NCBI GenBank assembly: GCA_903889245.1
Contig: CAISWQ010000069.1
Location: forward strand, 1 to 54,412
DNA: 54,412 nucleotides
Direction: 5' to 3'
Source of the DNA: an uncultured Lentisphaerota bacterium
Lineage (GTDB): Bacteria; Verrucomicrobiota; Kiritimatiellia; CAIQIC01
Of this stretch, positions 1-54,286 are shown piece after piece. The notes under the pieces were generated by a model. The model did not search any database. It saw only the letters and a program-made list of their open reading frames with translations, and was not told where the DNA came from. The number at the start of each line of letters is the position of its first letter. The first letter of the stretch is position 1. The translations under genes were made by a program, and so were the position numbers.

Positions 1-38
1 CGTTCTTTTTCAGTCAACTGCGTGTACTCTCGCTTCAT
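1..38 (-). CDS. IS30-family-like transposase, N-terminal fragment (cut by window edge)
   Basis: Only the first 13 codons are visible, reading MKREYTQLTEKE and then a CGN codon before the window ends. A short polar start followed by a QLTxxER pattern is typical of the N-terminal helix-turn-helix of IS30-family DDE transposases. A GGAG-type ribosome site (complement of positions 46-50) precedes the ATG at 38. What remains is far too short to prove the family. The flanking putative inverted repeat and the insertion into a palindrome fit IS30, whose members are known to prefer palindromic targets. Confidence 0.5.
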   Translation of the reverse strand, partial: MKREYTQLTEKE

Positions 39-128
39 GGACGGGTCTCCTTGCGGGGGTTGTTAGGTCCAACAACCGTTAGGTGTACCCGTCCGCTTTC
101 GGTGGTGCACTTATTATGTGCATGCGGG
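1..128 (-). mobile_element. End of an IS30-like element, inserted in a palindromic unit
   Basis: The stretch between the transposase start (38) and about 128 contains a likely terminal inverted repeat at roughly 100-124, around GTGCACTTATTATGTGCA. Immediately outside it, position 129 onward reads GCCTTGGAAAAC, exactly the right half of the palindrome family described below. The missing left half would fall at 120-128. The next complete palindrome is centred at 161, 31 bp from the expected centre at 130. The junction is inferred, because the other end of the element is outside the window. Confidence 0.5.
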
Positions 129-170
129 GCCTTGGAAAACGGGACGCGATTTTTTCCAAGGCTTGGAAAC
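129..170. repeat. Palindrome array 1 (half unit plus one full unit)
   Basis: The right half of a unit (centre 130) is followed by a full unit at 152-169 (centre 161), TTTTCCAAGGCTTGGAAA. Spacing is 31 bp. It lies in the 5' region of the DUF2723 gene. Confidence 0.85.
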
Positions 171-3600: not shown

Positions 3601-3687
3601 GGCCGGGTTTTCCAAGGCTTGGAAAACCCGGCCGTCATTTCTCCAACCCTTGGAATATTTCAGCTGCCGCTTTCCAAGGCTTGGAAG
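3601..3687. repeat. Palindrome array 2 (three units) between convergent genes
   Basis: Centres are at 3617, 3648 and 3679, spaced 31 and 31 bp. The first unit is part of a perfect 33-bp inverted repeat (3601-3633, 16-bp arms around a single G) in which GGCCGGG and CCCGGCC extend the core. The middle unit is degenerate (TCCAACCCTTGGA). The array sits 11 bp after the DUF2723 stop and 47 bp before the sod stop, so a bidirectional terminator role is possible. No classical U-tract follows the stem. Confidence 0.9.
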
Positions 3688-3733
3688 CGCCGGGGTGGAC
3701 AGGTCCGCCGCAGGCGGAGACCCAGCCTACACA

Positions 3734-8336: not shown

Positions 8337-8362
8337 CCGCGCGGGCTCCAGCCGGCAGCGTA

Positions 8363-8412
8363 TTTCCAAGGATTGGAGACCAAACCTCCGCTGTTTTCCA
8401 AGCCTTGGAAAA
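8363..8412. repeat. Palindrome array 3a (two units)
   Basis: Centres at 8371 (degenerate, TTTCCAAGGATTGGA) and 8403 (TTTTCCAAGCCTTGGAAAA), spaced 32 bp, just after the deiminase stop. Confidence 0.85.
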
Positions 8413-13935: not shown

Positions 13936-13950
13936 AGCGCCTCCGTCAGA

Positions 13951-14031
13951 TTTCCAAGACTTGGAACATGTGCTGCCCTGTTTTTCCAAGGTTTGGAAAA
14001 GCCCGCGCCGTTTTTCCCAGGCCCTGGAAAA
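13951..14031. repeat. Palindrome array 4 (three units)
   Basis: Centres at 13959, 13991 and 14022, spaced 32 and 31 bp. Cores vary: CCAAGACTTGG, CCAAGGTTTGG and CCAGGCCCTGG, the last keeping pairing through paired changes. It occupies the whole gap between two co-directional genes of the locus. Confidence 0.9.
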
Positions 14032-17350: not shown

Positions 17351-17378
17351 TTTCTCACCTCACCCTTGCGCCTCATCA

Positions 17379-17425
17379 TTTCCAAGCCTTGGAAAATTCA
17401 TCCCTCTTTTTCCCAAACCCTGGAA
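17379..17425. repeat. Palindrome array 5 (two units)
   Basis: Centres at 17387 (CCAAGCCTTGG) and 17418 (CCAAACCCTGG), spaced 31 bp, in the 96-bp gap between paralogues P3 and P2. Confidence 0.88.
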
Positions 17426-17446
17426 CCTCATCACCAGCCATGGTTT

Positions 17447-20502: not shown

Positions 20503-23500
20503 TTATTTCATATTTAACACATTCTTGATCTGATCCAACGTCGGCGCGGGCGCGAGCGACGGTGGCACCGCCGCCCCTGAAAGGTCAAGGGGGGGGATAT
20601 TAATGGTGATATCTTTCAAGCTTAAGGAGCCACCGCACATCGGACACCTGGAGGGTTGCGCCGCGGGCTGCTTGGCATTGAACCAAGCCCCATTTGAGTT
20701 TTTCCCCGTGACCGCGCACCCGATGCAGTAGCGCAATTTGTCGTAACGGTTCCCATCCAGCAGAACCAAGCAGCCTCCTTTGCTAGGCGGCTTGGGAGCA
20801 CTGCCACCGCCCGGAGGCGCAACCGTATTGACACTACGGCATTTCGGGCAACGCGCAGTGCCTTGGCTGGCAGGCCACGTTGCGCCGCAGCGGGCACAGG
20901 AGGACATTGCCGTGACATTAGCTCCACTCTTTTGTGGTAGGCCCCCACCTCCATCCGGCTCGGAGCCTCTGGCGGGACCCGTGTTTGCCGTGGTGGAGGC
21001 CTGATCGCCCTGTCCGCACTTCGGGCACTTGGGCGGAGCCGGCGGAGGGCCGGTGAACGTATTCCCGCAGGAATAGACCACCGTGATCGTGCCATCGGGA
21101 TTGGTCGTGCTGCCGACGATGCCCTGATCGCCTCCTCCGCCACCGCCACCTCCTCCTCCCCCGCCAGAACCATCACCACCGCCACCACCACCGGGCGGCA
21201 TACCGCCCCCGCCATCACCACCGCCGGGATCTCCGCCGCCGCCGCTCCCCGTACTGGTTCCCCCCGGACCATCACTGGCGCTACCCGGCCCGCTGCCGCC
21301 AGAGCCATCGCCACTGCCATCGCCGCCTTGGTCAGGCGGCTTGGTGCCCTGCATGACATTCTTCACCACGTTGGCTCCAGCCCCGCCAACGGCATCGCCA
21401 AAATTTTTCCCGCCTTGTGTCAGTGAATCCACCAGTGAGTTGCCCAGGATGCTGCCCCAACTATTGGCGTTCTGCGACTGCGCCAGCAATTGCGCCGCCT
21501 GCGAACGGGTCAGGCGGCCCTGATAACCGGCGGCTTCGAGGGTGTTCTTGATCTGGTTATAAACATCGTAGGAGACCCAGTTGGCCTTCACATCCTTCGA
21601 CTGCACGTCCAGATTCGCCAAGGCCGAGGTGGTGTTCTTGGCTTTCTCGGCATCGAAGTTGCCCATGACGCCCGCCAGCACCGACACCTGTGGGATCTTG
21701 ATGTTTTTCCCATCGCCTGCGTTCGGCTCCATGCCGGACAGCGTCGGGTCGCCCTGCCCCAGCGCATTCAGCAGTTTGTTGTTATCGTTCATGTCGTTGC
21801 CCAGGCCGTTCAGCTTGTTGAACTTGTCCTGTAACTGGTTCATCAGCTCTTTTTTCTCCGACGAATTGTGCGAGGCGAAAATCTGCGCCTGCAACTTGGC
21901 AATGTCATCGCCCAACCCGCCGGCTTGATTCGAGATCTGCCAGTTGTTGTTGTTGAGCTGATTGGCGTTATAGCCGTCGGCGGTGGCCGGCTTGCCAGTG
22001 TCATCATAGGTGACCTTGGGCGGCGTCACGCCCGGCGTATAATTTACACCCAAGTCCTGTAATTCTTTCTGTGTCGCACTGACACGACTATTGTAGTCGT
22101 CCTTGGTTTTCTGCAACTCCGCCAGTTGCGCCCGGAGGTCTTTCTTCTGGGAACTGTCGTGCGAATCGTTGATCTGCTGCTGGAGCGCATCCATCTTCTT
22201 TTGTGTGTCGTCACCCCAGCCGTTCATGCTGTCGGCATAATTCTGGAGCCGGCGTTTCTTGTCGGCATCCGGATCGGGCGGCGGTTCCGGCGGCATCTGT
22301 TCCACGGGTTCCGGTTTGTCCGGGAACAAATTCAGCGCTTTTTGGATGGGGCTTTCCGGGCCTGTATTACCTGCGGTATCCAGCCGGTTTTTCTTCATGA
22401 GTTCATCGGTCAATTGATTGGCCAGTTGCGCACGTTCTTCCGGGGTGAGCTTGCGGGTGGTTGGCGTGGAAGGTGTGGTTGCGGAGGTGGTTTGGTCGCC
22501 ACCGGTGGCATCCTTGATTTTTTCCGCGATAGCCTGATTCACGAAAGCGGCGGCTTCCTTGTCCGTGAGCAGCCCTAGCTTCTTCAGGTTCTCCGCTTCC
22601 TGCATGATCTTGTTGAAATCATCCAGCTTGTCGCCGGCAGACTTGGTCCAGTCCTTGACGGTCTTCACCCCGGGCAGGGAATCCGGCAGCAAGCCCAAAT
22701 ATCCCGCGCCGGAGGCATTGCCGGACTGCTGGGCATTTGCGGAGCCGGCCATGGATGAATCGCCGGAACCATCTGGACGGGACTGTGGCGATTGCAGACC
22801 TGCAGAAGACGAGCGATTTCCTAGACCGGCCAAGTCGGTACGGGCCTGTTTCTTCTGCTCCTCGTCGCCGTACTGCAAGGCTTGGTAGAGATCACCCAGT
22901 TGGGCCTTCTTGGTGGGATCACTCTCCGTTTCCCACCGGTCCTTGATGTCGCTGATTTTTTGCTGGTCTGTCGTGCTCAAGGGCGCATAGCGGGAGGGCA
23001 AATCCGGTAGTGGCGTCTGGGCCTTGAGCTGTTGCTGCTGTTTGTAGGTTTCGAGTTGCTGATGCGCCTTAAGTCGCTCCTCGTTATTCCCAACCTTGAG
23101 GTCCACATAAAGTTTGTTAAGCATCATTGCGTCATCACTGCCGGGGCGTGTTTTGTTAACCAAGGCATCTATATCGCCCATATCCTTGTTGGCGGTGGCG
23201 CCCAGATTGGCGCTATTGAGGATCATATCTCCACGGCCAAGCGCCGACGGTCCTTTGCCCACCGACGCCATCAGTTGATCCCTGGTGACACCAGGAGCCA
23301 GTGAAATTTCGCCACTATCGAGCTTGCGGTTGTACATGTCCTGCACATTCTTGATCTGCTGCTCGCTCATCTTCACGGCGTTGTGCTCTTCCAGCTTGGC
23401 TTGGCCCAGTTTGCCAGCCTCGTAGCCGGCCTGGCCGACGGCGACGCCGGAGGCGAGCACCATGCCGCCCGGGGTGGCGGCAACTATCATGCCGCCCGCG

Positions 23501-26500
23501 CCCATGGCGATCAGGTTCTTGGCCGCCGCATCCATCTCGTCAAATTTCTTGTTGGCCTCGGCATCGGTGATGTTCTTCCATTGGCCTTTGCGGACATCAT
23601 AGACATCGGTGCCCGCATTTGCGTAGTTATAGCCCTGATGACCAGCCTCCAGGATGATGATGCCCTTGCCAGCCTTATCCAATACGTTTTGTCCGCTCCA
23701 TTTTCCCTCACCACTGTTAAGCCACTGCCGCGCACCGGAGGAGCCCGCCGGCGCCTCGGTAGTGGCCCCCAATTGTTGCATCAGTTTCGCGTCCGCTCCC
23801 TGGACATTCTGCTCCCATCCTTGGAGCGCGCCACGGACCGAACTGGCACCCTTACCCACCGCATCGAGACCGCGGGACATGGCTCCGGGCTCGTCCGGGG
23901 CCACAAAACTGGACTTGCCGCCATCCAGCAGCGACTTCGGTGGTCCACCCCTGGAGGAGGAGCCCTCTGCAATGGTCACATTCGCGGCTTCGTGTCCGAC
24001 AGGCCGGGTTGGATTGTTGAGATCAATCCTGGGAGCCCCCTCCGGTTTCTTCATCTGGTTCAGCTCAATCCGGTCACGCACATTTTGCACGAAGGGATCC
24101 GGTCCACCACCGGCCATAGGGCCACCTTTGGAACCTCCGCCCGGCTTTAGCTTATCCAAGGCCTCCACCAAGCCAGCGTTCTTTTGGATGATACTATCAG
24201 GTGTTTCACCCATACCGGCCAGTTGTTGACGCGCCTCGCCGGGACTAAGGTTCCCGTCCTTGACTCTCTGCAAAATATCCATCCCCTTCTGGACATGTTC
24301 GGGAATCTGGGCGCGAACATCGCTGCCCTGCGCAGCCAACTGCGTATTCTTCTGATCAACGTAACCCGGCCGGTAATTGCCTTGGGCATCCTTGCCGCCC
24401 TTGATGAAATCATTCATCTTCGCGCCTTGGCGCATTTGCTCCATCTCCCAAGGCTCCATTTGCACCGTTGGCTGGTTACCCTTTTGCGCATCCAGTCCTT
24501 TATTACGTGCGATATCGCTCTTGTGTTGCATGGCTTTGGACACCTGCGCCGGATCGTTGAATTGTTGCGGCACCTCGCCCTTGGCAAGTTGCTGGCCGGT
24601 CTTGGGGGAATTGTCAAAGGCCTCCGGATGCAGGTGGTCCGTGGTCATCACACCCAGATGATCAGCAACACCGTGCGGCGTCTGCGGTACGCCACGCGAA
24701 GTGGCCAGCGGTGAACCGGGTTTGCCTTTGGTCGTGTTGTAGGTGGCCTGCTCGACAATCGGGCGCGCATCCTTGGCGGGCACTTCTATCGTTCGTCCAT
24801 CTGCGGTCTTCACCTTCACCGTATGATCCCAATCCTGCCCCACTTTGGGAGCATCACCGGGTTTGCGGGAAGTCATATCGTCAACCACCACACGACTGGT
24901 GTCCGGCGTGCCGTCAGGCTTCAACAGGTTATACTTCTTGGCAATCTCTGTCTTGACCTGCTCCCGGATGTTGTTTTTGACGCCATCTGTGGCATCCACG
25001 TGCGCCTGCTTGACCTCCGGTGAGGAGTTCTTGTTCATGCGTTGCACAGCGAGAGGGTCCGACTGTACTTCCAAGGCGAGCTGCGCCTTGTTCCCCCTGC
25101 CATACTTCACCGCGTCTTCAAAGTTCTTGATCTTGGCATCCGCGATCTGCTCCGCCTGTTGCCAAGTGGCCGCGCGATCACCTACGCGCGGCCCGGTCTG
25201 TGGGTCCTGCGGCCAAAATGTGGCGGCCGACGGTCCCCTGGGGGGCTGCGGTGGTGGCCCCTTGCCCTTCGAGTTCTTCCACTGCTCCACGGCGGCATGA
25301 TATTCCTCCACCTGCTGTTGGTTTTGGAAGAGCCCTCCACTCGCTTTGACCATCTCAGGATCAACGGTCACGGGCCGGGTCTTTCCGGTAGGCGGCGGTT
25401 GCGCATTGCGCGCATCGGAGGCCGCCTTGGCGAAGTCGGCAGCGCGCTTCTGCTGGGCGGCGATCGCCCGGTCGGCCGCCTGCTGCGCCGCCTGGATTTC
25501 CTTGGGCGAATTACCGGAAGAGGCGGCCTGCTGCTTGAATTTCTCCAGCTTGGCAATAGCTTCGTCCGGCGTGTTGTGGGGATCAAAGACTTCTGACTTC
25601 AGCCCATCGCCATGCTTGCCCATATCGCGCACTTGCTTCTTCTGATACGCGGCCAGTTCCTCTTGCTCCAAAGCGCTCAAATGACCTTTGAGTTTTTGGG
25701 AGGCTTCGTTCTTCATCTGCTGCAAGGCAGCTTGGTGCTCTGGCGAACCTGGGGCCACATAGCGCGTGCCATCGTTGGGCGGACGCGGGCCTTGCGGCCC
25801 ACCCGCCGCAGCCGTACTGGCCGGCGGAGTCGGTGGCCGCGAAGGCGGCGGACGCTGATTCCCCGGATGACCATCCAGCGTACCCAACGTCCGGCCTGTT
25901 TCATTGACATTCCCCAAGGTCACTTCAGAACCCGTGACCGGCGGACGCCCCTGCGTCGGCGGGCGATTGCCGGGATGACCGTCCAATGTTCCCAGTGTGC
26001 GGCCCGGATCCGTAGCATTGCCCAGTGTCACTTCGGAACCTGTGACCGGCGGACGTCCCTGCGTTTGCGGACGATTGCCCGGATGACCATCCAACGTGCC
26101 CAACGTCCGGCCCGAATCCATCGGTTGGTTCAATCCCGATGGAGGCGGCCCCTTGCCGGTGGGACCGGCCGTTGTGCTGTGCGGCTGATTACCAGATCGC
26201 GTACCGGGGACAGCCTGCGCGGTGGGTTCTGGCCGCGGACCAGTTGTGGACACCGTCCCGTGCCCCGTGGCCGCAGCACTGCCTTCCGGTTTGTACACTT
26301 GCTGGGCGCGCTGGGCAAAACCTTTGGCCTCTTGAAATTTCCCATTCTTGGTTTCGTAAAACACGACCTTGTTCTTCAGGCGTTCCCAATTCTCTATGAC
26401 GTAACGCAACTCCGTGGATGTGACCTTATCCATATGCGCCTCACCACGCAGGATCTTTTCCACATCCTGCATATGTGTGAGGTCGAAGCGAATCTTGCCA

Positions 26501-29364
26501 TCCGGACTACTTGCCACTTTGTCTATCAACCGCTTGGTGACTTCGTTGGGGTGTTCGTCAGGGGACAGCCGGATATCGTCATAAACATCGTTCAACAACC
26601 GCGCCCCACGCTTATCGCCCATCTTCCGCAACTCACCTTTTGCCGAGGGACCGTAAGCATAGTCACCCGGCTCGAAAGTAATGGTGGTATTGGGATTGGC
26701 GCCAACCGGCGGCGCGCCGGAGGAAGGCTTGACAAACCTGCTCTCGGTGGCGGGACTGTGTGGAGGCTCCACACGGCCCGTTGCCCGGGTCTGTGTGGGG
26801 GCATGGGGTTCCTCCGTCACTGCCACAGCGCCAGCGCCACCACCGCCATGATGTCCACCGCCGCCATCGCCCCGGGGTGGTGGCTTGTCCACTGTCACCG
26901 GCGGGGGATGCTGGCCGCCAGAAGGAGGCTTGGTGCTGCCAGACCCTGCCATATTCTTCGGCGGAATCTCTGTTGGCGAGGAGCCTTTTGAGCCTGGTTC
27001 TGGCCGGTAGTAGTTGGCCCGCTCGTCCGGCCCGGGGCCGATTTGCTTCAAATCGCCAGCCAGCTTGCCCTCGGCTTTCACATAATCCGGATCGCCCGGC
27101 TTCAGGCCGCGCTTGAGCATGTCGAGTTGGAATTTATTGATCGCATCGGCCCGGGCAGCTTGAACCCGCTGATCGCGCGCGCGCCGAAGCACATCGTTCA
27201 ATTCCGCATTTTCTGGCGTCCCTTTTTTCAGGTAGGGAGGCAGTTCTTTCGCCACCGTCGGAGTTGGCTCCTGGACGGCCGGCAGATTTCTATTAGCCTC
27301 TTGCGCCTTCTTGATGGCTGCCACCAGTTTGTCATATTCCGGCGTCCCCTTTTGGGGCAAACCCTTTGGCCGTTTGGCAACCTCTTGCGAGGGCGGCGGC
27401 ACTTTCAAATCCTTCTCCGTGGTCGTCCCCGGTAATTTCGACTTGTCGAGTTTCCCATCCGGCGTCCGCGGCAGTTCGCGTACGTCCGTCAGCGTGATCT
27501 CACCCGACAACTTCGCTTTGTCTATCCGTCCATCCGGCGTCCGGGGCGGCACTTTTAAATCCTTCTCCGTGGTCGTCCCCGGCAACTTGGACTTGTCAAG
27601 CTTCCCATCCGGCGTCCGCGGCAGTTCGCGCACATCCGTCAGCGTGATCTCACCCGACAACTTCGATTTATCTATCCGTCCATCCGGCGTCCGGGGCGGT
27701 ACTTTTAAATCCGTCTCCGTGGTCGTTCCCGGCAATTTCGACTTGTCGAGTTTCCCATCCGGCGTCCGCGGCAACTCGCGCACATCCGTCAGCGTGATCT
27801 CGCCCGACAACTTCGATTTATCTATCCGTCCATCCGGCGTCCGGGGCGGACCCTGCGGCGGACGTTTGCCGCCATCGCCACCCGCGGCGGCTGCCGCCAC
27901 GGGCGGATTGGGTCCTTGTGGCGGCTTGCCAGGGCCAAGCCGACCAGCCTTGAGGTCCGCCAGAATCTGGGTGTCCGAACGCCCCTTCATGATCTCTTCC
28001 AGAATGGCTTCATACACCTGCGGATTCTGGGCATATTCGGGCAGGATATCGCCGCGTGTATTGCGCAAGCGCTGCTGGTTGCCGGCCGGAGACTGGCTGG
28101 CGCCCGCCTGCTGGGGTTGCCGCTGCAAGGCTTCCAGACGGCGCTGGTTCTCTTCGATCAAACGACGCGCGTTATTGAGCGCCTCATCGTTGCTGACGGG
28201 CGGAAGATTTTGTGCGCTGGTGGCGACGGGCGGGGCTGGAGGCGGCGCGGTCCGCGCTGGAGGTTCGGGGAAGAAAGCCTTGGTGCCGGCATGCAGCGTG
28301 GGCGCCGTCTTGCTACGGAACTGGTCCAACGCCGCCTTGGCGGCGGGATCAGGTGGCAGGACCCGCTCCAGACGCTGCCCTACGTTTTGCAGCGCGCGCC
28401 CCTGTTCGATGTTGAACTGCCGCACCGCCTGCTCGCGCGCCCACGGCGACATGTCGGCCGTGTACACGCCAGCCTCCAACGGCGTTGCGCCCTGCTGCAG
28501 TTTCCGGACCTTTTCCCAAAACGCCGGGGAAGACGCCGCATCATCCGCGTGAAAACCCGTCAAGCCACCCACTCGCCCGCCGGATTGCGCCGGCAAAACG
28601 CCCGCCCGTTCCGCGCTCTGTCCCAACGCCTGCGCCAGATTCCGGGCGCTCCCATCACGCACCAGCATTGGATCATTGAGTTGCGCCTCGTAAATCTTGC
28701 GTTCACCGGCGTAGTAATCGGCCATGCTGTTCACCCGCGGCGCGACGGTCGGCGCTTTCAAGCCCTCGCGGCCATACGTCTGTTCGACCATGGTCACGGC
28801 CCGGTCATAACGATCCATCAGACCCTTGAAGGCCGGCGAGTCCCGCTGCCCGCGCAGTCCATTCTGTTCGATCGTCCGCTCGTATTTCTCGCGCAGTGCC
28901 ACCAGTTCGCGTGTCTTTTGCGCCAGCAGGTCCGCCTGCGACGGCGGCTCCGCCACCGGTGTCGCCGGCAACTCCACCACCCGCGCCCGCTCCCGCGCCT
29001 GACGGCCGATCATTTCCGCCTTCTCCTTGCGGAAATTTTGCATCAAATCCCGGTACGCCGTGGAATCGCTGCTCAACTTGCTGGCCGGTTCCTGATATTT
29101 CGCCTGCAACTGTTGCATTTCCTGATGCTGACGGCGCAGCATCTCGTCCTCGGTCTCCGCACAGGCGACGCCAAGCCACAGGCCGGCGCCGGCGAGCAGC
29201 GCGAGCGCGAACTGTTTCCAGGGATTGGAAAAGTGGACGGCTGGTTTTTCCAGGGATTGGAAAAAGTCAGTCACACCTTTTCCAAGCCTTGGGAAAAAGC
29301 AAGGGACGTTTTTCCAAGCCTTGGAAAACGTCCCTGCGGTCACACGACCACACGATTTTTTCAT
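20503..29364 (-). CDS. Giant (2953 aa) exported low-complexity, repeat-containing protein with C-terminal zinc ribbons
   Basis: The start ATG 29364 follows AGGAG with good spacing. The N-terminus is odd: MKKSCGRVTAG, then about 40 residues translated from a palindrome array, then the hydrophobic core FALALLAGAGLWLGVACAE of a signal peptide ending near residue 70. Next come coiled-coil segments (to about 500), three 50-residue TPDG repeats (about 505-655), three 36-residue GTLDGHPGN repeats (about 1080-1170), and long Gln/Lys/Pro-rich stretches. A small-residue hydrophobic segment lies near 1935-1975, with more coiled coils after it. Then a module SILGNSLVDSLTQGGKNFGDAVGG (about 2635-2665) matches the zipper module of P1-P4, followed by an almost pure Gly stretch (about 2680-2745). 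Three Cys-x2-Cys ribbon motifs lie between about 2775 and 2910. The function is unknown; surface scaffold, adhesin or polymorphic effector are candidates. Confidence 0.8.
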   Translation of the reverse strand: MKKSCGRVTAGTFSKAWKNVPCFFPRLGKGVTDFFQSLEKPAVHFSNPWKQFALALLAGAGLWLGVACAETEDEMLRRQHQEMQQLQAKYQEPASKLSSDSTAYRDLMQNFRKEKAEMIGRQARERARVVELPATPVAEPPSQADLLAQKTRELVALREKYERTIEQNGLRGQRDSPAFKGLMDRYDRAVTMVEQTYGREGLKAPTVAPRVNSMADYYAGERKIYEAQLNDPMLVRDGSARNLAQALGQSAERAGVLPAQSGGRVGGLTGFHADDAASSPAFWEKVRKLQQGATPLEAGVYTADMSPWAREQAVRQFNIEQGRALQNVGQRLERVLPPDPAAKAALDQFRSKTAPTLHAGTKAFFPEPPARTAPPPAPPVATSAQNLPPVSNDEALNNARRLIEENQRRLEALQRQPQQAGASQSPAGNQQRLRNTRGDILPEYAQNPQVYEAILEEIMKGRSDTQILADLKAGRLGPGKPPQGPNPPVAAAAAGGDGGKRPPQGPPRTPDGRIDKSKLSGEITLTDVRELPRTPDGKLDKSKLPGTTTETDLKVPPRTPDGRIDKSKLSGEITLTDVRELPRTPDGKLDKSKLPGTTTEKDLKVPPRTPDGRIDKAKLSGEITLTDVRELPRTPDGKLDKSKLPGTTTEKDLKVPPPSQEVAKRPKGLPQKGTPEYDKLVAAIKKAQEANRNLPAVQEPTPTVAKELPPYLKKGTPENAELNDVLRRARDQRVQAARADAINKFQLDMLKRGLKPGDPDYVKAEGKLAGDLKQIGPGPDERANYYRPEPGSKGSSPTEIPPKNMAGSGSTKPPSGGQHPPPVTVDKPPPRGDGGGGHHGGGGAGAVAVTEEPHAPTQTRATGRVEPPHSPATESRFVKPSSGAPPVGANPNTTITFEPGDYAYGPSAKGELRKMGDKRGARLLNDVYDDIRLSPDEHPNEVTKRLIDKVASSPDGKIRFDLTHMQDVEKILRGEAHMDKVTSTELRYVIENWERLKNKVVFYETKNGKFQEAKGFAQRAQQVYKPEGSAAATGHGTVSTTGPRPEPTAQAVPGTRSGNQPHSTTAGPTGKGPPPSGLNQPMDSGRTLGTLDGHPGNRPQTQGRPPVTGSEVTLGNATDPGRTLGTLDGHPGNRPPTQGRPPVTGSEVTLGNVNETGRTLGTLDGHPGNQRPPPSRPPTPPASTAAAGGPQGPRPPNDGTRYVAPGSPEHQAALQQMKNEASQKLKGHLSALEQEELAAYQKKQVRDMGKHGDGLKSEVFDPHNTPDEAIAKLEKFKQQAASSGNSPKEIQAAQQAADRAIAAQQKRAADFAKAASDARNAQPPPTGKTRPVTVDPEMVKASGGLFQNQQQVEEYHAAVEQWKNSKGKGPPPQPPRGPSAATFWPQDPQTGPRVGDRAATWQQAEQIADAKIKNFEDAVKYGRGNKAQLALEVQSDPLAVQRMNKNSSPEVKQAHVDATDGVKNNIREQVKTEIAKKYNLLKPDGTPDTSRVVVDDMTSRKPGDAPKVGQDWDHTVKVKTADGRTIEVPAKDARPIVEQATYNTTKGKPGSPLATSRGVPQTPHGVADHLGVMTTDHLHPEAFDNSPKTGQQLAKGEVPQQFNDPAQVSKAMQHKSDIARNKGLDAQKGNQPTVQMEPWEMEQMRQGAKMNDFIKGGKDAQGNYRPGYVDQKNTQLAAQGSDVRAQIPEHVQKGMDILQRVKDGNLSPGEARQQLAGMGETPDSIIQKNAGLVEALDKLKPGGGSKGGPMAGGGPDPFVQNVRDRIELNQMKKPEGAPRIDLNNPTRPVGHEAANVTIAEGSSSRGGPPKSLLDGGKSSFVAPDEPGAMSRGLDAVGKGASSVRGALQGWEQNVQGADAKLMQQLGATTEAPAGSSGARQWLNSGEGKWSGQNVLDKAGKGIIILEAGHQGYNYANAGTDVYDVRKGQWKNITDAEANKKFDEMDAAAKNLIAMGAGGMIVAATPGGMVLASGVAVGQAGYEAGKLGQAKLEEHNAVKMSEQQIKNVQDMYNRKLDSGEISLAPGVTRDQLMASVGKGPSALGRGDMILNSANLGATANKDMGDIDALVNKTRPGSDDAMMLNKLYVDLKVGNNEERLKAHQQLETYKQQQQLKAQTPLPDLPSRYAPLSTTDQQKISDIKDRWETESDPTKKAQLGDLYQALQYGDEEQKKQARTDLAGLGNRSSSAGLQSPQSRPDGSGDSSMAGSANAQQSGNASGAGYLGLLPDSLPGVKTVKDWTKSAGDKLDDFNKIMQEAENLKKLGLLTDKEAAAFVNQAIAEKIKDATGGDQTTSATTPSTPTTRKLTPEERAQLANQLTDELMKKNRLDTAGNTGPESPIQKALNLFPDKPEPVEQMPPEPPPDPDADKKRRLQNYADSMNGWGDDTQKKMDALQQQINDSHDSSQKKDLRAQLAELQKTKDDYNSRVSATQKELQDLGVNYTPGVTPPKVTYDDTGKPATADGYNANQLNNNNWQISNQAGGLGDDIAKLQAQIFASHNSSEKKELMNQLQDKFNKLNGLGNDMNDNNKLLNALGQGDPTLSGMEPNAGDGKNIKIPQVSVLAGVMGNFDAEKAKNTTSALANLDVQSKDVKANWVSYDVYNQIKNTLEAAGYQGRLTRSQAAQLLAQSQNANSWGSILGNSLVDSLTQGGKNFGDAVGGAGANVVKNVMQGTKPPDQGGDGSGDGSGGSGPGSASDGPGGTSTGSGGGGDPGGGDGGGGMPPGGGGGGDGSGGGGGGGGGGGGDQGIVGSTTNPDGTITVVYSCGNTFTGPPPAPPKCPKCGQGDQASTTANTGPARGSEPDGGGGLPQKSGANVTAMSSCARCGATWPASQGTARCPKCRSVNTVAPPGGGSAPKPPSKGGCLVLLDGNRYDKLRYCIGCAVTGKNSNGAWFNAKQPAAQPSRCPMCGGSLSLKDITINIPPLDLSGAAVPPSLAPAPTLDQIKNVLNMK
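25855..26125 (-). repeat. 108-bp tandem repeats inside the giant gene
   Basis: The element GGATGACC recurs at 25865, 25973 and 26081, a period of 108 bp (36 residues). The protein repeat is GRTLGTLDGHPGN followed by a Pro/Gln linker and PPVTGSEVTLGN. Low divergence suggests recent expansion. Confidence 0.9.
27397..27850 (-). repeat. 150-bp tandem repeats inside the giant gene
   Basis: The element CTCCGTGGTCGT recurs at 27415, 27565 and 27715, a period of exactly 150 bp (50 residues). Each repeat encodes two related half-repeats, RTPDGRIDKSKLSGEIT and RTPDGKLDKSKLPGTTT. Copies are nearly identical at DNA level. Confidence 0.92.
29214..29335. repeat. Palindrome array 6 (four units) inside the giant gene
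   Basis: Centres at 29223, 29255, 29287 and 29319, all 32 bp apart. The last unit extends to a longer inverted repeat, AGGGACG and CGTCCCT flanking the core (29302-29335). The array is read in frame on the minus strand as TFSKAWKN, FFPRLGK, FFQSLEK and FSNPWK. It separates the start codon from the signal-peptide core. Confidence 0.92.
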
Positions 29365-29483
29365 GGCTACCACTCCTGCCTATTCACGCCCAAACACCAT
29401 CGGGACACACCACAGCCCGACGACGCATAGTCCGCCCCTTCCCTGCAAATTTCAAGCGGTATTTGGCAGCTTTTTGGTGGCGG

Positions 29484-34342: not shown

Positions 34343-34553
34343 AGAGCCTCCAGCCAACGCAAGCCCGACGCATCATCCGCAACCGCCCCGCCGGAAGCAA
34401 GCGCATTCCCGGCCCGCGCCCATTTTTCACCATCCCCGCGCCACTTTTTCCAAGGCTTGGAAAAATTTTTCAGGCCCCGGGAAAAAAACGCGCGAGATTT
34501 TCCAACGCCTGGAAAATCCGCGCTTTCTTTTTCCAATCCTTGGAAGAGCCGGG
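34343..34553. other. Intergenic region upstream of the ten-gene locus
   Basis: This gap lies between the kinase stop (34554) and the start of the FN3 gene. Both are on the minus strand, so it must hold either the promoter of the exported-protein locus or the terminator of the kinase gene. It contains a four-unit palindrome array and no recognised promoter. Confidence 0.6.
34445..34546. repeat. Palindrome array 7 (four units)
   Basis: Centres at 34455, 34476, 34507 and 34538; spacings 21, 31 and 31 bp. The 21-bp step, two helical turns, is the only clear exception to the 31/32 rule. The second unit is degenerate; the third keeps an extended palindrome GATTTTCCA...TGGAAAATC. Confidence 0.88.
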
Positions 34554-37902: not shown

Positions 37903-37953
37903 TTTTCCAAGGCTTGGAAAAAGCAGGGCGCGGGCTGTCCAAGCTTTGGAAAA
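37903..37953. repeat. Palindrome array 8 (two units)
   Basis: Centres at 37912 (CCAAGGCTTGG) and 37944 (CCAAGCTTTGG), spaced 32 bp, in the gap between the PEP-CTERM gene stop and the kinase start. Confidence 0.88.
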
Positions 37954-37976: not shown

Positions 37977-40900
37977 TCAGCGCCGGGCCAGGCGGCGGCG
38001 GAGACCGCGCCAGCCGCAGGCGAGGGCACACAGCAGCAGCAGGTTGAGCGTGGCGGGTTCGGGGATAACGGTGAGGACGATGTCGTTGGCGGTGCCATCG
38101 CTGTTGAAGTCGTAGCGGATGGTGAAGGAGTTAGTCGCGCCGTTGCCGAGGGCGTAGAAGGAGGTGCCGTTCAGCAGGTTCAGGCCGTGGCTCGGTCCTC
38201 CGAGGTCGCTCAACCTGAACCACTGGTTGGTGCCGTCGAAGGCGCTCATGCCGGTGAACAGGTTCTGGTAGAGGACGATGGTGCGGCCGGCGTCGGCGGG
38301 ATTCTGCACGTAGGCGGAGAGGTCGAGCTTGAGCAGAGGGCTGCTGCCATCGCCGGTCAGGCTGTTGGTGATGACGCTCATGTCGTGGGTGGCGTAGCTG
38401 GGGCCGATCCAGTAAAGGTTCGTGGAGCTGCCGGAGAGGGAGATGTTCTGGAAGAAGTTGGTCGCGCCGCCGACGCCGGGGGTTAGCAGGCCACCGGAGA
38501 GGTTGGTGACGCCGCCGGCGAAGCTGCCGCCGCCGCTGACGCTGGCGTTGTAGGCGATGATGAGTCCGCCCATGACCGTGCCGCGGTTGGTCAGGCTCTG
38601 GCCGCCGGCAAGCGTGAGGCTGCCGAGGCCGGTGACATCAAGCGTGGCACCGGCGGAGATGTTGAGGGGACCGGTGCCGGGCGCGCCGCTGCCGGTCAGC
38701 GCGAGCGTGCCGCCGCCGACCGTGGTGCCGCCACTGTGGGTGTTCGCGCCGGAGAAGGTGGTGACGCCCGCGCCGGTCTTGGTGACGCTGCCGCCGTGGG
38801 AGAGCACGCCGCTGTAGGTGGTGGGCAGGTCGTTGCCGCCGAAGGTCACCGCGAGGGGCGCACCACTGGCGTTGGTCAGGGCGATGTCCTGCGTGCCGGC
38901 GAGGCCGCCGAGAGTATAGCTGGTGCTGGCGGGGCCGAAGCTGGCGCTGCCGTTGGTGTAGTTCAGCGTGCTGTTCTGCAAAGCTTGGGCGCTGTTGATG
39001 AGCAGCTCGCCCGCGCCGGGCACGGTTTCGCCGGTGTGCGTGTTCACGCCGGCCAGCGTCAGAGTGCCGCTGCCGGTCTTGATTAGCGGCGCGCCGCCGT
39101 TGAGCTCGGCGACGTTCTGCAGGGTGCCGCTCTGGAAGACGAGGTTGCTGATGTAGCCGTTCGCGCCATCGCCGAGCGTGTGGCCATGCAAGTCGAGCGT
39201 GCCGCCGAGCAGGTTGAGCGTCGAGAGACCGCGCCCACCGAGCAGGTTCGCAAAGCTGTTGACCGTGCCGCCGGCAAAATTGACCGTGCCGGTGATGCTG
39301 CCACTGCCGAGGCGTTGCGCGATGACAAAGGTGTGGTTCACGTTCAGCACGCCGCCGTTCTGGGTCAGCACGCCATTGACCACGCCCTGCGTCACGCCCG
39401 AGAGGCTGCGGCCCACGACCGCCGTGTTGACGTCCACCACCCCGCCATCGAAGGTGAAGACACCGGTCGGGCCATTCACGCCACTGGGGGTGGCATCGAG
39501 TGTGGCCAGCACGAGTTGGTCGAGGTTGGCATAGATGGCGGCGCCCGCATTGGTGATCATCAGATAATTGGAGGCGTTGACGCCGGTGCCGCTGGTGAGG
39601 CGGCCGATATAGACGTTCGCGCGGTCGGTGCCGCCGGTGCCCGCGAGCGTGAGCACGGGGTTGATGAGGCCCGCCGCAAAGGTCATGGCGCCAAAGCCCT
39701 TGTAATGGCCAAGCACGAGATGGGCCACGTTCAGGGTATTGCTCTGGCCCAGGAAGACCTGGCCCTTCACCGAGCCGTCCTGATCAGACCAGCCCACCGT
39801 CATGGCATTGGCGGTGATCAGGCTGTTGCTGGCCAGCGCCCACTGCGCGTTACGGCTGCCCTGCGTGAAGCCCGACTTATCGTAGCCCACCACGATATTG
39901 CTCACGCTGACATTGAGCGCGCCGAGTTGCGAGGCATCCAGACCCAGATAGGCCGCGACGTTGTTGGAACGGCCCCAGATCAGCAGGCCGCCCTGCGGAT
40001 CGTTGATGTTGAGCGTGCCGCCGCCGGACAGGATGACGTGCGTGCCATGGCCGATGTTGACCAGGTTGCTGTTGGCGGCGGACACCACGTTGAGCGTCTG
40101 GCCAGGCCCCAGATTGATAACCGAGTTAGTCAGCGCCAGATTGTTGACCGGATTATTGACCGGCGTGACCAAGCCGCCAAGGGTCTGGCTAAAGCCGCTC
40201 ATATCGAGGGTGCCGCCGGTAGTCGCGCCATCGCCCAGGAAGAGGACGGAGCCGGCGGGCAACGTCTCCGCCGCGCCCAGTTGCAGCGTGCCCTGCCGGA
40301 TGGTCGTACTGCCGCCGTAGGTATTCGCTCCGCTCAACGTCCACAGGCCCGTGCCGCCCTTGACCAGTGAACCGCTGTTGGTGATGAGGCCGGCAAAGGC
40401 GCCGCTGGCACTTTGGTTGACCGTCAACACGTTCGCGCCCACATCAATGACCGCTGTGGCGTCACCGGTCAGGTTGCTGACGGAGAGCGACTGTGCAAGT
40501 TGCAGCAGGCTGTTGGTCAGCGCCACCGGCCCGCCACCCAGCGCACTGGCCTGCGCCGCGATGACCACGCCAGTGCCGATGACTGTGCCGCCGCTGTAGG
40601 TGTTCGCCGCCGCCAGCGTCAGCGGATTCACGCTGACCAGATTCAGGCCGAAGCTGCCGCTGATGACATTACTCAAGGTCAGGCTGCCGCCAGAGGTGTC
40701 CACGACGCTGTTGGTGAGGAGCGTAATCTGGTTGGTCACCGTCCAGCCGCCGCCGTTGGCCACGCCGAGCTGGCCGTTGTTCAGCACCAACCGGCCGCGG
40801 CCCAATGCATTCACGCCGCCAACGGCGACCATGCCGGCGTTGTTCGTGAGGTTGCCGGTGAACGTACTCGTCCCGGCGAGCGTCAGCGTGCCGGTCCCCT

Positions 40901-43900
40901 GCTTGACCAGGAAGCCGGAGCCGCTGATGACGTTGGTGCTGGCGAGGCTGCCGGCGACGTTCATCACGCCGCCGCCGGTCTGCAGCACGATGGCGCGGTT
41001 GGCGAGCGTGAAGCCGCCCGCGCCCACATCCAACACGGCGCCGTTGGTGAACGTCAGGCTGCCGCCCGTCGCGCCGAGGTTGTTATCGGCGCTGATCTGC
41101 AAGGTCCCGCCCGCCAGGATGGTGCCGTTGCTATAGCTGTTCGCGCCGGCCAGCGTCAGCGTGCCCGCCGCCAGTTTCCGGAGGGAACCGCTGCCACTGA
41201 TCGCGCCGCCAAAGGTCAGCGGATTGACGTTGGCGAAGACCAGCGCGGCGTCGTTGGAGATGTTCCCGATCACCACGCCATCGGCGCCCGCGCCATCACC
41301 CAGTTGCAGCACGCCACCGGAGAGGAGCGTGCCGCCGGTGTAGGAGTTGGTGCCGGTCAGCGTCAGGGTGCCCGCGCCGCCCTTGGCCAACACACCGGCA
41401 TTGGTGATCGCGCCGGCAAACGTGCTGTTGCCGGCCTGAGTAAGCGTCAGGACATGGCTGCCCAGGTCAATGGAGGCCCCGGCGTTGCCGGAGAGGTCGC
41501 CACTGATGGTCAGTGGCTGCGCCAGTTGCAACGCGCCGTTCGTGATCGCCACCGCGCCGCTGCCCAAGGCGTTGCTGTGATTGGCGATCAGCGTGCCGGC
41601 GTTGATGAACGTGCCGCCGCTGTAGAGGTTCGAGCCCGAGAGCGTCAGGCTGTAGGCGCCGTTCTTGAGCAGCGCCCACGAGCCATCGGCCTCGCTGATA
41701 ACGCCGTTGACCACCAGGCTGTTGCTGTAGGCGTTGAACGGCCGGCTGAAGCCATCGAGCACCAGGGGCAGGTTGATGGTCTGGAGAGCAGGGCTGTTGT
41801 TCTCCACCGCGCTGGTCAGGTTGACCGCGTTGCCCTCGAGCACGAAGGCGTCGGCGTTGGCGGCAAAAGTGAGGCCGGCAAACTTCGTGTTGGCGGCGAA
41901 GTCGTTCGTATTGATGAGGCGCGCCGACCCCGCGAAGATCAGCGGCACACCCGCGGAGGGGAAGACGGACCAGTTGTCGTTGCTGGTCCAATAGCTGTCC
42001 ACGGCATTGCCGCCGGTCCAGCGGAAATCGGCGTTGGCGATGTCCACCGTGATCCAGACCCCGTTGGTGTTGAAGGTGTATTTCTTGTAGGGCGCGGTAT
42101 TGACGCTCAAATCCTCGAGCAGGCCGGAGAGCAGGCCATCCACGCGCACCAGATAGAAGGTGCCGTTCGTGGTCCACGCCGTGGTGGTCCCTTCCTCATA
42201 GAAGTTGAACGCGCCGCCGCCGATGGCCACATCGCCCAGCACCACGATCTGGTCGTTGGTCTGCGGATGGCCGAGGTTGAACTCGTAGTCATAGAGACTG
42301 CCGGAGTTCATCGTCAGGTTGCTCATCGTCAGCGTGCCGATGCTGTTACCGGGCACCACGCGGCCGAGGGAGTTGACGACCACGGCGGCGACCGCGCCGG
42401 TCCCCTGCAGGCTGCCGCCATTATGTATGGTCACCGTGCCCGGCCCGGTAGCCAGGCCCGTGGCGTTGTTCACCAACAACACACCGTTGCTGATGATCGT
42501 GCCGCCCGTGTAGGTGTTGGCCGTGTCGAGCAGCAGCGTGCCGCCGGTGGTCTTGACCAGCGGCGTCAGGCCGCCATTGAGCTCGGCGACATTTTGCAGC
42601 GTACCCGCTTGGAAGTTGAGGTTGCTGATGAAACCGGAGGCCGTGCCCAGGTTGAACCCCTGCATGTTGAGCGTACCGCCATTGAGCGTCACCACCCCGC
42701 GCCCGCCCACATTGTTGGTGATTTCGCCACCGAGCGTGACCACGCCGCCCGTGATGTGCAGCGTACCCGTGTTGGTGGCCGCGCCAGATAGGTTGACGCC
42801 GCCCAGATTGACCGTACCGCCGCCGATACTCACCAAGTTCACCCCGCGCCCACGCAGACCCATGACCAGGTTGGTGATGTCCATGATGCCCTGGTCGAAG
42901 AAAAGGGCATTGGTATAGACGCCGTTGCGGTTCTGGTCACCCATGGTCAGCGTGCCCATCAGCAGGTCGGCATAGTGGCCGGCGAGATTCACCAAGTTGT
43001 TGGCCGTATAACCGGTGGTCGTGTTGTTGATCAGGATATTGACCGTCACACGACCGGTGCCGTTCGTGTCGCGCAGCAACAGGCTGCCACTGCCGCCACC
43101 GAAAACAAGGTGCCCGCTGTCGCGCGAGCCGGAACCCAGGTTGAGCGTGGCCGTATTGAACACGTTGGAACCCGGCCCCAACACGAGCGTCTGGATGCTG
43201 CCCAGACTGCTGCCACCCACCGTGATGGTGGCCGCTTTCAGGAAGTTCGAGCCGGCCAGGATCAGGCTGTGGGGATAGGCCGCACTGTTATCACCGCTGT
43301 AGGCCACCGACAAGGTGCCGGTGCCCAGATCCATGTTGAAGGAGGCCAGACCCGAAAGGTCCAAGGTCGCCTTGCCGCGCAAATCCGTGCCCGTCACCAC
43401 GCCCAACCGTACAAAACCGCCCTCCTTGGCGATGACCAGATGGCCGCCGCCGGTCATGGCCAGCGCGGTGCTCGAGGTATTCAAATTGGTGCCGATGGTC
43501 ACATCGCCATTGATCGTCAGGGTCTGGCCGGCGGTGATGATGATCTGGTTGGTGACCGCATCGCTCGTGCTGCGGGAGAGCAAGCCCGTGAGCGACTGGC
43601 TGAAGCCGTTGAGGTCGAAGAGTCCGTAGTTGGTGGACTCGCCGATAAACAACGTCGAGTTCACTGGCAGCACATTGTGGGTGGCCGCCCGTAGCGTGCC
43701 GCCGCGGATCAGCGTGTCACCGCCATAGGTATTGGCGGCGCCCAGCACCAGCGTGCCCGGTCCGGCCTTCACCAGCCCGGCGGTATTGGTCAGGACGTTG
43801 TTGAGGGTGGTGATGCTGTTGGAGATGGTCAACGTTCGCGTGGTGGTACCCAGGTCGCCAAAGGCGCCGGACAGCGTCAGATCACCGAACCCAGCGACCC

Positions 43901-46900
43901 CGAGGTTGGCATCAGCCATAAAGGCGAGGTTGTTATTCAACGTGCGCGCGGCCGCACTGTCGGACGAAAGGTAGCCGCCATTGAACACCAGCGTGCCCGA
44001 CCCAAGCACATTATCGGCGCCAAGCGCCAACGCGCCCGCGGTGTTGGTCGTGTTGCCGCTATAATTGTTGGGCCCTGACAGCACCAGCACACCAGAACCC
44101 AGTTTATTGAGCCCGCCCTCTCCGGTGATCAGGCCGGGGATCAGGTTGGTGGTGCCCAGCGGTTCAAGGTTGGCCGTGGCACCGCTGTTGAGCAGGAGGG
44201 TGCGGTTGACCTCGAGGGTGAAAGAGGCGGCAAACTGTAAACCTGCATTCCCGTTGAACACCAGGTTGCTGGCCGGCACCCCGGGGGCCACACCCAGCGC
44301 CGCGTCCGCCTGGATATGCAGCGCACCGGCGTTGAACACCGTGGCCGCCGTGTAGGTATTGACGTTGGTGAAGACCACCGTGCCCACGCCGCCCGGGGAC
44401 CCGATGATGACATTGCTGCCGGCGCCAATGCTGGCAGGATAGTTCAAGGTGCCCCCGCCACCACCGAGCCGATAGGTCGCGTCAAAGCCGGTCAGTGTGC
44501 CCGTGAAAGTGCCCGTTGTGCCGGAAGCCGCGCCGAGGAAGAGATTACTGAAACCGCCCGCAGTGAAATCTATGGCCTCGCTGTTGTCGCTGACGATGGC
44601 GATGGCGCCGGAGGAGGTCGGCAGAATCCGGCCGGACCCCAACCAGGCGTTCACAGAGGCATAAGCGCCGGTGGCGCCCAGCGCGCCGCCACTGTTGATG
44701 AGGATGCTGCCCGTGCCGGGTAGCGCGCCCGCGCCAAAGGTCAGACAGCCTCCGTTGAGCACCGCACCGCCGGAGAAGCTGTTCGCACCCGTAAGCGTCA
44801 GTCCGCCATGCCCGGCCTTGGTCAGCGCGCCCACCTGACCGACCGCATCCTCCAACGGCTGGGCCACTGTGATGTCCTTGTTAAGGCCCACATCGAAGGT
44901 CGCACCATTGGTAGTGATGAACGCGTGGGTCAGATTGCTCATGTAGTTCGCGCTGGCCGCCACGGGCCCCAGACTGCCGCCATCAAGCAGAACCTCGGAA
45001 TACGAGCCGGCGCCGCGTGTCACCGGGAAAGCACCCAGCGTAACCCGCGCACCCTGACCGATATAAATTTGCCCGGTGCTGTTGTTGCCACTGGCCAAAC
45101 CGCCAAAGGAGGTGGCCCAGAAAGTGCCGTTGCTGATCGCGAGTACAGCCAGATTGTTGGAACTGTTGGCCGCAGTGCCGCCCGCCATGGTCAGCGAGGC
45201 CAACCCGACCGAGCCGCCCGCCTGATGGAAGTAGCCGATGGCACCGACGGCGGCGGCATCCGACCGAGCCACCTGCATCTGGTTGCCGGTCACCACGCCG
45301 GTGACCATGTTGAAGATACCCGTCGAGTTCGCGTTGATACCGAGGAGCATACCGCGGTTGCCGGTAGTCAGGGCGTTCAACGTGCCGCCGTTGAGCAGAT
45401 AATAGCCCGCGCCGCCGCCGGCCCCCAGGATCAAACCATTGCCGCCACCGGTGGCCGAGACGAAACCACCGACCTGCTGGATCATGCCCGTCGCGCCGGT
45501 CACATTGCCAACGCGGACATCCTGCGCGCCAAAGAGATTGCTGGAGGTCGGGCCCAGCGTCAGTGTGCCGCCGTTGACATAGACATTATTGGTCAGCGTG
45601 TTGAAACCGGTCAGCACCAGTTCGCCGGAGTTGGTCTTATAGAACGCGCCCGCGCTGATGAACCGCGCCGTGTTGGTAAAACTGTCCGACCGGTTCACGA
45701 CCAGCGTGCCCTGATTGACAATCTGCGTGGCGCCGACCCAGCCGGAAGCGCCGCCCGTACCCAGCCACAAGGTATTGCCGGAGGCGTTGGTCAGGATGCC
45801 GCTGGCATCGTTGTCGAAGGGCAACACCGTGATGCCGCCGCCGCCCCGCCCGATGGTCACGTTCACGCCCACACCAGTGAACAGGTTGGGCGTGGCGTTG
45901 GTGATCGTGCCGCCGCCACCGCCAAAATAGTAGCCCGCCGCGCCGGGGAACAGGCCCCCGCTGAACGTCACGCTCCGGCCCGCCGCCGCGCCGATCGAAA
46001 GCCCGGCATACACGGACAGCCCCAGCGCCTCGGCGCTGTCGGCCACCAAAGCCAGCGAGCCGGCCGAGTTGGTGGCCAACCGCCCGGAGGAGATCCACTC
46101 ACCCAGCGTGGCGTAGGGACCCGTCACCACCAGCGCGCCGCCGACATTGTTCGAGATGAAGCCGCTGGCCGGCAACGCTCCGGCGTTGTCGAACTGCAAC
46201 CGGCCTGCATTGATGGTGAGTCCGCCGGTAAAATCATTTGCGCCGCTCAAGATGGCGAACCCGGAACCGCTGACCGTCAGCCCCCCGCTGCCGGACACCA
46301 CGCCGGTGATGAGGTTGCTGCCGTTGTTGGGATTCAGGCTCAAGGTGTAGGAGTTCAGTTGGATGTTACCGCTCTCCGTCATCACGAACGTGGAGGCCGC
46401 ATGGGTCATGGTCGCGTTGTTGGAAAGCGTGAGCGTCCCGGTCAGCGTGGTGTTGGTGGTGGGGCGCAACGCGCCACTGCCCGCGCCGGTACCGGCGAGG
46501 GTGAAGTTGTTGCCATAGGTAGCGTTGGCCGCCTGCAGGAACAAGGAACCGTTGACCACCGTCACCGCGCCCGGCCCAAGGGACGCCACCTGCTTGGCCA
46601 GCACTGCGCCGTTACTGATCACCAGCCCGCCGGAAAAATCGTTGGCGGCCACCAGCGAGAGATTGCCGGAGGAATTGAAGTTGGTCAGGTTCACCACCAG
46701 CGCGCCGGGACCAAACACATTGGAGTTGAGCGTAAGCAGGCCCCGACCGCTGCCATCGAACAACGTGTTGGCCGCCAGGTTGAGGACCTGGTTGAACGTC
46801 ACGTTGGTGGAGGTGAACTGCCGCATCCGCGGCAAGGTCGCCCCGTTGTTGGTGAACACCAGCGTGGTGCCAGCGCTACCCACGATCGTCAACGCCCCCA

Positions 46901-49360: not shown

Positions 49361-49411
49361 TTTTCCAAGGCTTGGAAAATTTTCCCCCTGTTTTTCCAAG
49401 CCTTGGAAAAA
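49361..49411. repeat. Palindrome array 9 (two perfect units)
   Basis: Centres at 49370 and 49401, 31 bp apart, with full TTTTCCAAGGCTTGGAAAA-type cores. A further degenerate half-like unit lies near 49343. The array follows the GH97 gene. Confidence 0.92.
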
Positions 49412-49854: not shown

Positions 49855-50010
49855 TCCCTGTTCATCCCCTCTTCTTTTTCTGTCTCCCGTTTTTCTGTCC
49901 ACCTTCCGCCCTCGGCCCCGCAACATCACCCACCGTGCGCACCTTCGATGTTGGATGTTCGGTGTTCGATGTTCGATGTTCGCCGCCCATTCCCCTGTCT
50001 CCATTCCCTT
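49855..50010. repeat. Direct repeat flanking the kinase/FGE gene, left copy
   Basis: About 155 bp (CTTTTTCTGTCTCCC, then CACCGTGCGCACCTTCGATG, then CCCATTCCCCTGTC) is nearly the same as 54041-54196 on the other side of the kinase gene, in the same orientation. Includes heptad repeat H3 (49944-49982): TTCGATG, TTGGATG, TTCGGTG, TTCGATG, TTCGATG. Confidence 0.88.
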
Positions 50011-53855: not shown

Positions 53856-54286
53856 GTCCCTGCTCCTTGCCACCGCCGTTTGGCTGGCACTGGCTACACC
53901 AAAACCCAGCGCCAAACAAGGAAAAGCTAAGCGGCGGCGCAACGCGCCGCCCTCCAGTGGAGGGCGAGCCGGGCCGCTACAGGGGAACAGCGAAGACGGG
54001 AGGACGCGAAGTCGAGCAGTTCTTCGCGCCTTCCGGCCTTCCCTGTTCCTCTTCTCTTCTTTTTCTGTCTCCCATTTTTCTGTCCACCTTCCGCTCTCGG
54101 CCCACAGCATCACCCACCGTGCGCACCTTCGATGTTCGATGTTGGATGTTCGGTGTTCGATGTTCGCTGCCCCATTCCCCTGTCCCCCTTCCTTGGCCTC
54201 CCCTCTTTTCCTGCCTTCCTGATTTCCTCATTCAAAATCCGAATGGCCGAAAAAAAAGAACAGCAGTGGATAGAAAAACCGGAGAC
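53856..54286. other. Gene-free region between the kinase gene and the right-hand IS
   Basis: This 431-bp stretch carries a cloverleaf-related segment at about 53928-53986 that resembles the flanks of copy A but lacks the 51-bp unit, and the right copy of the flanking direct repeat. The last 90 bases show nothing recognisable. It must contain the promoter of the kinase gene; none was identified. Confidence 0.7.
54041..54196. repeat. Direct repeat flanking the kinase/FGE gene, right copy
   Basis: Right partner of 49855-50010. Heptads at 54128-54166 are TTCGATG, TTCGATG, TTGGATG, TTCGGTG and TTCGATG: the same heptads in a different order from the left copy, as expected for slippage or unequal exchange. 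Confidence 0.88.

Follow-up and report, generated by a model that had tools for sequence, protein, structure and literature searches.

The DNA analysed here (the window, 54,412 nucleotides) is contig C69 of a 5.26-Mb genome assembled in 125 contigs. Its left edge cuts through an IS30-type element, whose left (transposase-start) end occupies positions 1 to 128 on the minus strand and is common to 16 copies in the genome; 15 of the 16 are 99-100% identical over whatever part of positions 1 to 127 each of them holds. Positions 1 to 38 (minus strand, with the ATG at 38-36) hold the opening 12 codons of the transposase gene, read from the sequence; the N-terminal residues that they encode, MKREYTQLTEKE, are the basis for assigning the element to IS30 within the window. 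A second copy (L011) extends the reading to 31 residues, which is all of the protein assembled in this genome, and these residues match the start of a relative (L107) carrying the Pfam domain HTH_38 (PF13936, 3.4e-14). The IS30 family model found no match in the element's own genome, because the interior of the element is unassembled there.

The same model (NF033563) scored 168.8 bits on the copy in a sister genome (G001) and 252.2 bits on a relative in the genome G187. The N-terminal helix-turn-helix domain PF13936 was found in the relatives L107 and L109, and the integrase core rve was above the cut-off in L071 and below it in L109. Transposase homology, a helix-turn-helix domain and an integrase core in relatives, and imperfect terminal inverted repeats together lead to the prediction that the element is of the IS30 type. 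A 254-amino-acid frame in the G001 copy was considered as a compact transposase, and this candidate was dropped: the G002 copy has the N-terminal part missing there and is itself broken. The frames in G001 and G002 probably represent decayed copies.

The element terminates in a left inverted repeat of 27 bp (positions 102 to 128, minus strand) ending with GCATGCGGG at 128; its inner part and the GGG end are identical in 16/16 copies. A preliminary description of this DNA had placed the IS end directly against an exact right half of a palindrome. We confirmed this arrangement, with the true end at 128 and not away from it, followed at 129-139 by GCC and TTGGAAAA. The spacer triplet GCC (positions 129 to 131) would be a 3-bp target duplication, in line with the agreement of the left and right spacer tallies given below, and TTGGAAAA (positions 132 to 139) is the right half of the palindrome TTTTCCAANNNTTGGAAAA. 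The missing left half would complete a unit centred at 130. The next unit (positions 152 to 170, one mismatch) is centred at 161, 31 bp from the interrupted one, so that the spacing first described also holds. The window matched no Rfam family.

Palindrome arrays in the genome

This genome has 1,339 exact copies of TTCCAANNNTTGGAA, and three sister genomes have 853, 789 and 271; the reversed control of this sequence was found 0 times in 37 of 38 genomes and once in the remaining one (G005). Within the window, CCAANNNTTGG is present 20 times against 0.79 expected, a number reached by 0/100 shuffles. In a 454-kb sample consisting of parts of three contigs and the window, 283 units matched at least 12 of 16 positions, compared with 7 and 9 in two shuffled versions. 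The consensus unit is TTTTCCAANNNTTGGAAAA, which is symmetric and lacks a GTAG or CGTC tag. Among the 165 unit spacings of at most 200 bp in this sample, 89 were of 31 bp and 62 of 32 bp. The 12 to 13 bases between phased units are nearly all different (100/100 and 67/68), with little information content.

Arrays of two units are located at positions 8362-8412, 13950-14000 and 37903-37953 of the window (32 bp apart), at 49361-49410 (31 bp apart) and, within a long open frame, at 52096-52145 (31 bp apart). Three units 31 bp apart lie at 3608-3688, four units 32 bp apart at 29214-29328, three units of which the last two are 31 bp apart at 34446-34547, and a unit followed 31 bp on by a degenerate one at 17378-17427. 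At 3608-3626 and 29310-29328, GC-rich complementary flanks lengthen the units into longer palindromes, a feature of few units in the sample, with at most 9 extra pairs. The window also contains a 7-bp tandem repeat (TTCGATG, 5.6 copies) present twice, 4 kb apart (49944-49982 and 54128-54166), and two very long open frames on the minus strand, one of 2,956 codons (20503-29373), which includes tandem repeats of 108 and 150 bp at 25857-26119 and 27395-27849, and one of 3,060 codons (37977-47159).

Relative to gene calls from a simple script, which are rough, 96 of the 123 placeable arrays lay outside genes and 27 inside (27/127 of the arrays). Among gaps of at least 60 bp, arrays were present in 17/31 convergent, 51/119 tandem and 10/38 divergent ones, and their placement leans away from promoters.

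Positions of the element ends

A search of the genome with positions 1-170 of the window retrieved the copies of the element, with 51 matches in total. The top 16 all represent this element end and lie, almost without exception, at the ends of contigs; the remaining matches correspond to palindrome arrays, except for one (C85) that is the other end of the element. This right end, used in turn as a query, gave 15 copies, each with an inverted repeat equal in length to the left one. The inverted repeats are imperfect (27 bp each, 18/27 identical, counted by eye). The assembly breaks inside every copy in this genome, and left and right flanks could not be joined copy by copy.

At all 31 ends (16 left, 15 right), three variable bases separate the element from a half-palindrome, and every end lies at the centre of a palindrome unit. 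TTGGAAAA was matched at no fewer than 6/8 positions by 30/31 ends, compared with 0.31% of 200,000 random sites; the match was 8/8 in 20 ends, 7/8 in 6, 6/8 in 4 and 4/8 in 1. GGA stands at +5 to +7 in 31/31 ends. The weakest end (L013, CTGGAGCG), with 4/8 half-site bases, still keeps CTGGA, and unrelated sequence was not found next to any of the 31 ends. Retrieval of all copies, definition of their ends and inspection of their flanks had been proposed as the check on whether the repeat acts as a genome-wide landing site; the half-palindrome at each end, with the agreement of the sister genomes described below, supports that proposal.

The presence of a half-palindrome at every copy could also mean that it belongs to the element's own end. 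However, the arm and the spacer vary between copies, and intact palindromes exist without the element: 1,339 were counted here and 459 in the genome G009, in which no transposase relative was found at E 1e-20. These observations refute this explanation, to which we assign practically no weight. Beyond the half-site, the sequence differs from copy to copy at left and right ends alike and, since the flanks farther out differ, the copies are separate insertions. Random insertion with survival of only the harmless intergenic copies agrees with the mostly intergenic position of the arrays, as judged from the rough gene calls, but it cannot explain why 31/31 ends share a single position within the 19-bp unit; it is refuted by the exact insertion position and is equally negligible. 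Landing in arrays instead probably spares the host, because the arrays are mostly between genes.

Because the assembly breaks inside each copy, we compared the spacer tallies of the two kinds of ends in place of joined flanks. Read in the transposase sense, the left-end spacers were GGC (5), GGT (4), GCC (4) and ACC (3) (n = 16), and the right-end spacers GGC (5), GGT (4), GCC (3) and ACC (3) (n = 15). A partner spacer was thus available for 15/15 right ends (p 0.0004 against the genome spacer pool, 0.04 when the pooled spacers were permuted). The sole copy assembled across (L071, in G001) has half-sites on both sides, and its spacers, GTC and GCC, differ by one base. When first-gene synteny in three sister genomes was used to find a right flank for the left flank of the window, one weak match and no pair resulted. 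From the spacer tallies, a 3-bp duplication at the target is likely. The target duplication in the IS30 family may also be 3 bp.

Spacer use bears on a further explanation, namely that the element follows a general IS30 taste for imperfect palindromes with a GC centre and AT-rich arms, the arrays being merely the best such sites in a GC-rich genome. According to the portion of PMC9927407 drawn on here, the targets of IS30-family transposases are imperfect palindromes that are GC-biased at the centre and AT-rich in their distal parts, a description that the unit fits. Yet the GGA at +5 to +7 in every end is tighter than a composition rule. In addition, GGT/ACC spacers are rare in intact units (16/214) and were nevertheless found at 7/16 left and 7/15 right ends, while GGA/TCC spacers, present in 36/214 intact units, were never used; a sequence preference is therefore indicated. 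We consider a general taste of this kind rather unlikely as the explanation.

A further palindrome unit lies 31 or 32 bp off, on the visible side, at 19/31 ends, compared with 0.3% at random. Such neighbours would be expected if a host protein seated on the phased arrays recruited the transposase, so that the element followed the protein and not the sequence. On the other hand, 12/31 ends have no phased neighbour on the visible side, their opposite side being unseen, and the insertions are at the exact centre, a position that a dimer bound there could be expected to shield. Moreover, IS30 relatives choose palindromes without such arrays, as far as the cited part of PMC9927407 describes them. 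Recruitment by a host protein is accordingly an unlikely account, even with the lineage pattern given below in its favour.

Direct recognition of the palindrome by the transposase is the most likely explanation to judge from the sequences, since recognition by a dimer would fit the centring of the insertions, the symmetry of the half-sites and the N-terminal helix-turn-helix of an IS30-type transposase. Taking the centred position, the half-sites at both kinds of ends, the matching spacer tallies and the independence of the flanks as established, the mechanism could be as follows. The N-terminal helix-turn-helix domain would allow a transposase dimer to recognise both half-sites and, by analogy with IS30, a circular intermediate would attack the unit centre with its joined ends. 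A cut at that centre would leave a half-palindrome on each side of the copy and duplicate the 3-bp spacer. The arrays come close to an ideal IS30 target. We estimate at roughly 85% the probability that TTTTCCAA-NNN-TTGGAAAA, the genome-wide palindrome, is the landing site of an IS30-type element, present in about 16 copies here, that inserts at the unit centre.

Related elements and arrays in other genomes

The sister genomes gave the same picture. Half-sites matching at 6/8 positions or better were found at 5/5 left and 5/5 right ends in G002, at 5/5 ends in G001 (DP16D_bin.41) and at the single end in G003 (TAGGAAAA). One additional match in G001 (L052) had no readable end. A second, distinct IS30 element in G001 has one end at TTTTCCAAGGG.

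Phased pairs of units (31/32 bp) were present in 39 of 387 genomes of the phylum (e.g. G000, G043 and G367), all from the window's class or closer; none was found among the genomes of this sample related only at phylum level. Pairs of TTCCGANNNTCGGAA in the same 31/32-bp phase occurred in 10/146 genomes of the class, all of family f21 (e.g. G044, G187 and G421). In one of them (G187), three TTCCGA units lie at intervals of 31 bp, and the third is interrupted by an IS30 end, seen in one copy. On a Kiritimatiellae contig (L108), an intact unit is followed by TTTCCAACGA abutting an IS30 end.

The 3.1-Mb Kiritimatiellae contig WLWN01000001.1 carries an unusual expansion of one IS30 relative, with 58 loci fetched (among L110-L171). 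Of its 51 copies with both ends, 25 have TGGA at a distance of exactly 4 bases from their right end, and 15 have another unit in phase at 32 bp. The left flank is weak, and a target duplication was not clearly above chance in the 51 two-ended copies. Across a 380-kb sample of the same genome the unit was no more frequent than expected by chance; one row of four phased units was present. Two IS30 relatives, L082 (G202) and L254 (G412, TTCCGA family), are not in a half-palindrome, although both genomes carry arrays, and L255 (G421) had no recognisable element end. This survey of ends covered 37 loci and judged those relatives whose ends carry the finder motif AAGTGCA.

IS30 insertions in the palindrome were seen in lineages that spell it differently, with TTCCAA in the element's own genus, TTCCGA in G187 and N4TGGAA in WLWN01000001.1, a pattern that recruitment by a host protein would also explain. 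A broader and more tentative reading, which we hold possible at somewhat less than even odds, is that the class as a whole carries previously undescribed arrays in which a symmetric palindrome recurs every three helical turns (31/32 bp). Each genome would have between a handful and hundreds of them, their period being fixed and their letters differing by lineage. The arrays would be bound by a dimeric protein, and several IS30 lineages would have evolved to land there, their target shifting with the palindrome.

In the present element and its target, a mobile element is matched to a repeated chromosomal sequence down to the single base; this is a clean natural case, and the match can be traced through lineages in which the palindrome has changed. 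The case also draws attention to a phased, class-wide palindrome: its real and accessible units are marked by the insertions, and the transposase could readily be used as a probe. Given so predictable a target, IS30-type elements of this kind could become tools for site-directed insertion in laboratory strains.

Comparison with known systems

Like the REP repeats associated with RAYT in the part of PMC3733652 considered here, the palindrome is short, in high copy number and mostly extragenic. It differs from them in that the unit is symmetric, without a GTAG/CGTC tag, and strictly phased at 31/32 bp with unique intervening sequence. No Y1 transposase lies next to the units in this genome: it gave two weak Y1 matches, one at a locus without a unit and the other with one unit about 1 kb off, so that a link to a RAYT is not supported.

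Insertion sequences of five families (IS3, IS110, IS4, IS256 and IS5) target REPs, ISPsy8, ISPpu9, ISPpu10, ISRm22 and ISPa11 being named in the portion of PMC1525189 used here. The present element resembles them in that all or nearly all copies lie in a repeated extragenic palindrome. In contrast, IS30 is not among the five families given there, whereas the IS30-type element described here is in the palindrome at 31/31 ends. IS1655, an IS30-family element according to the title of a cited reference, is in REPs at just 2/13 and 2/6 copies in a table of that source.

IS30, IS1655 and ISApl1 have in common with the present element an IS30-type transposase, imperfect inverted repeats and near-palindromic sites, judging from the sections of PMC9333248 and PMC9927407 relied on; the former reports a circular intermediate, 2-bp repeats and a hot spot of nearly palindromic sequence. 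The duplication inferred for the present element is 3 bp, versus 2 bp for IS30 and ISApl1 in the same sections, and its target is a unit repeated over a thousand times and cut at its exact centre.

In the open-licence literature on Kiritimatiellia/Verrucomicrobia repeats and on IS30 in Kiritimatiellia, titles and abstract openings contained no description of the arrays. The targeting of repeated palindromes by insertion sequences and the liking of IS30 for palindromes are already known; what looks new is that an insertion sequence relies almost entirely on a phased array that is class-wide.
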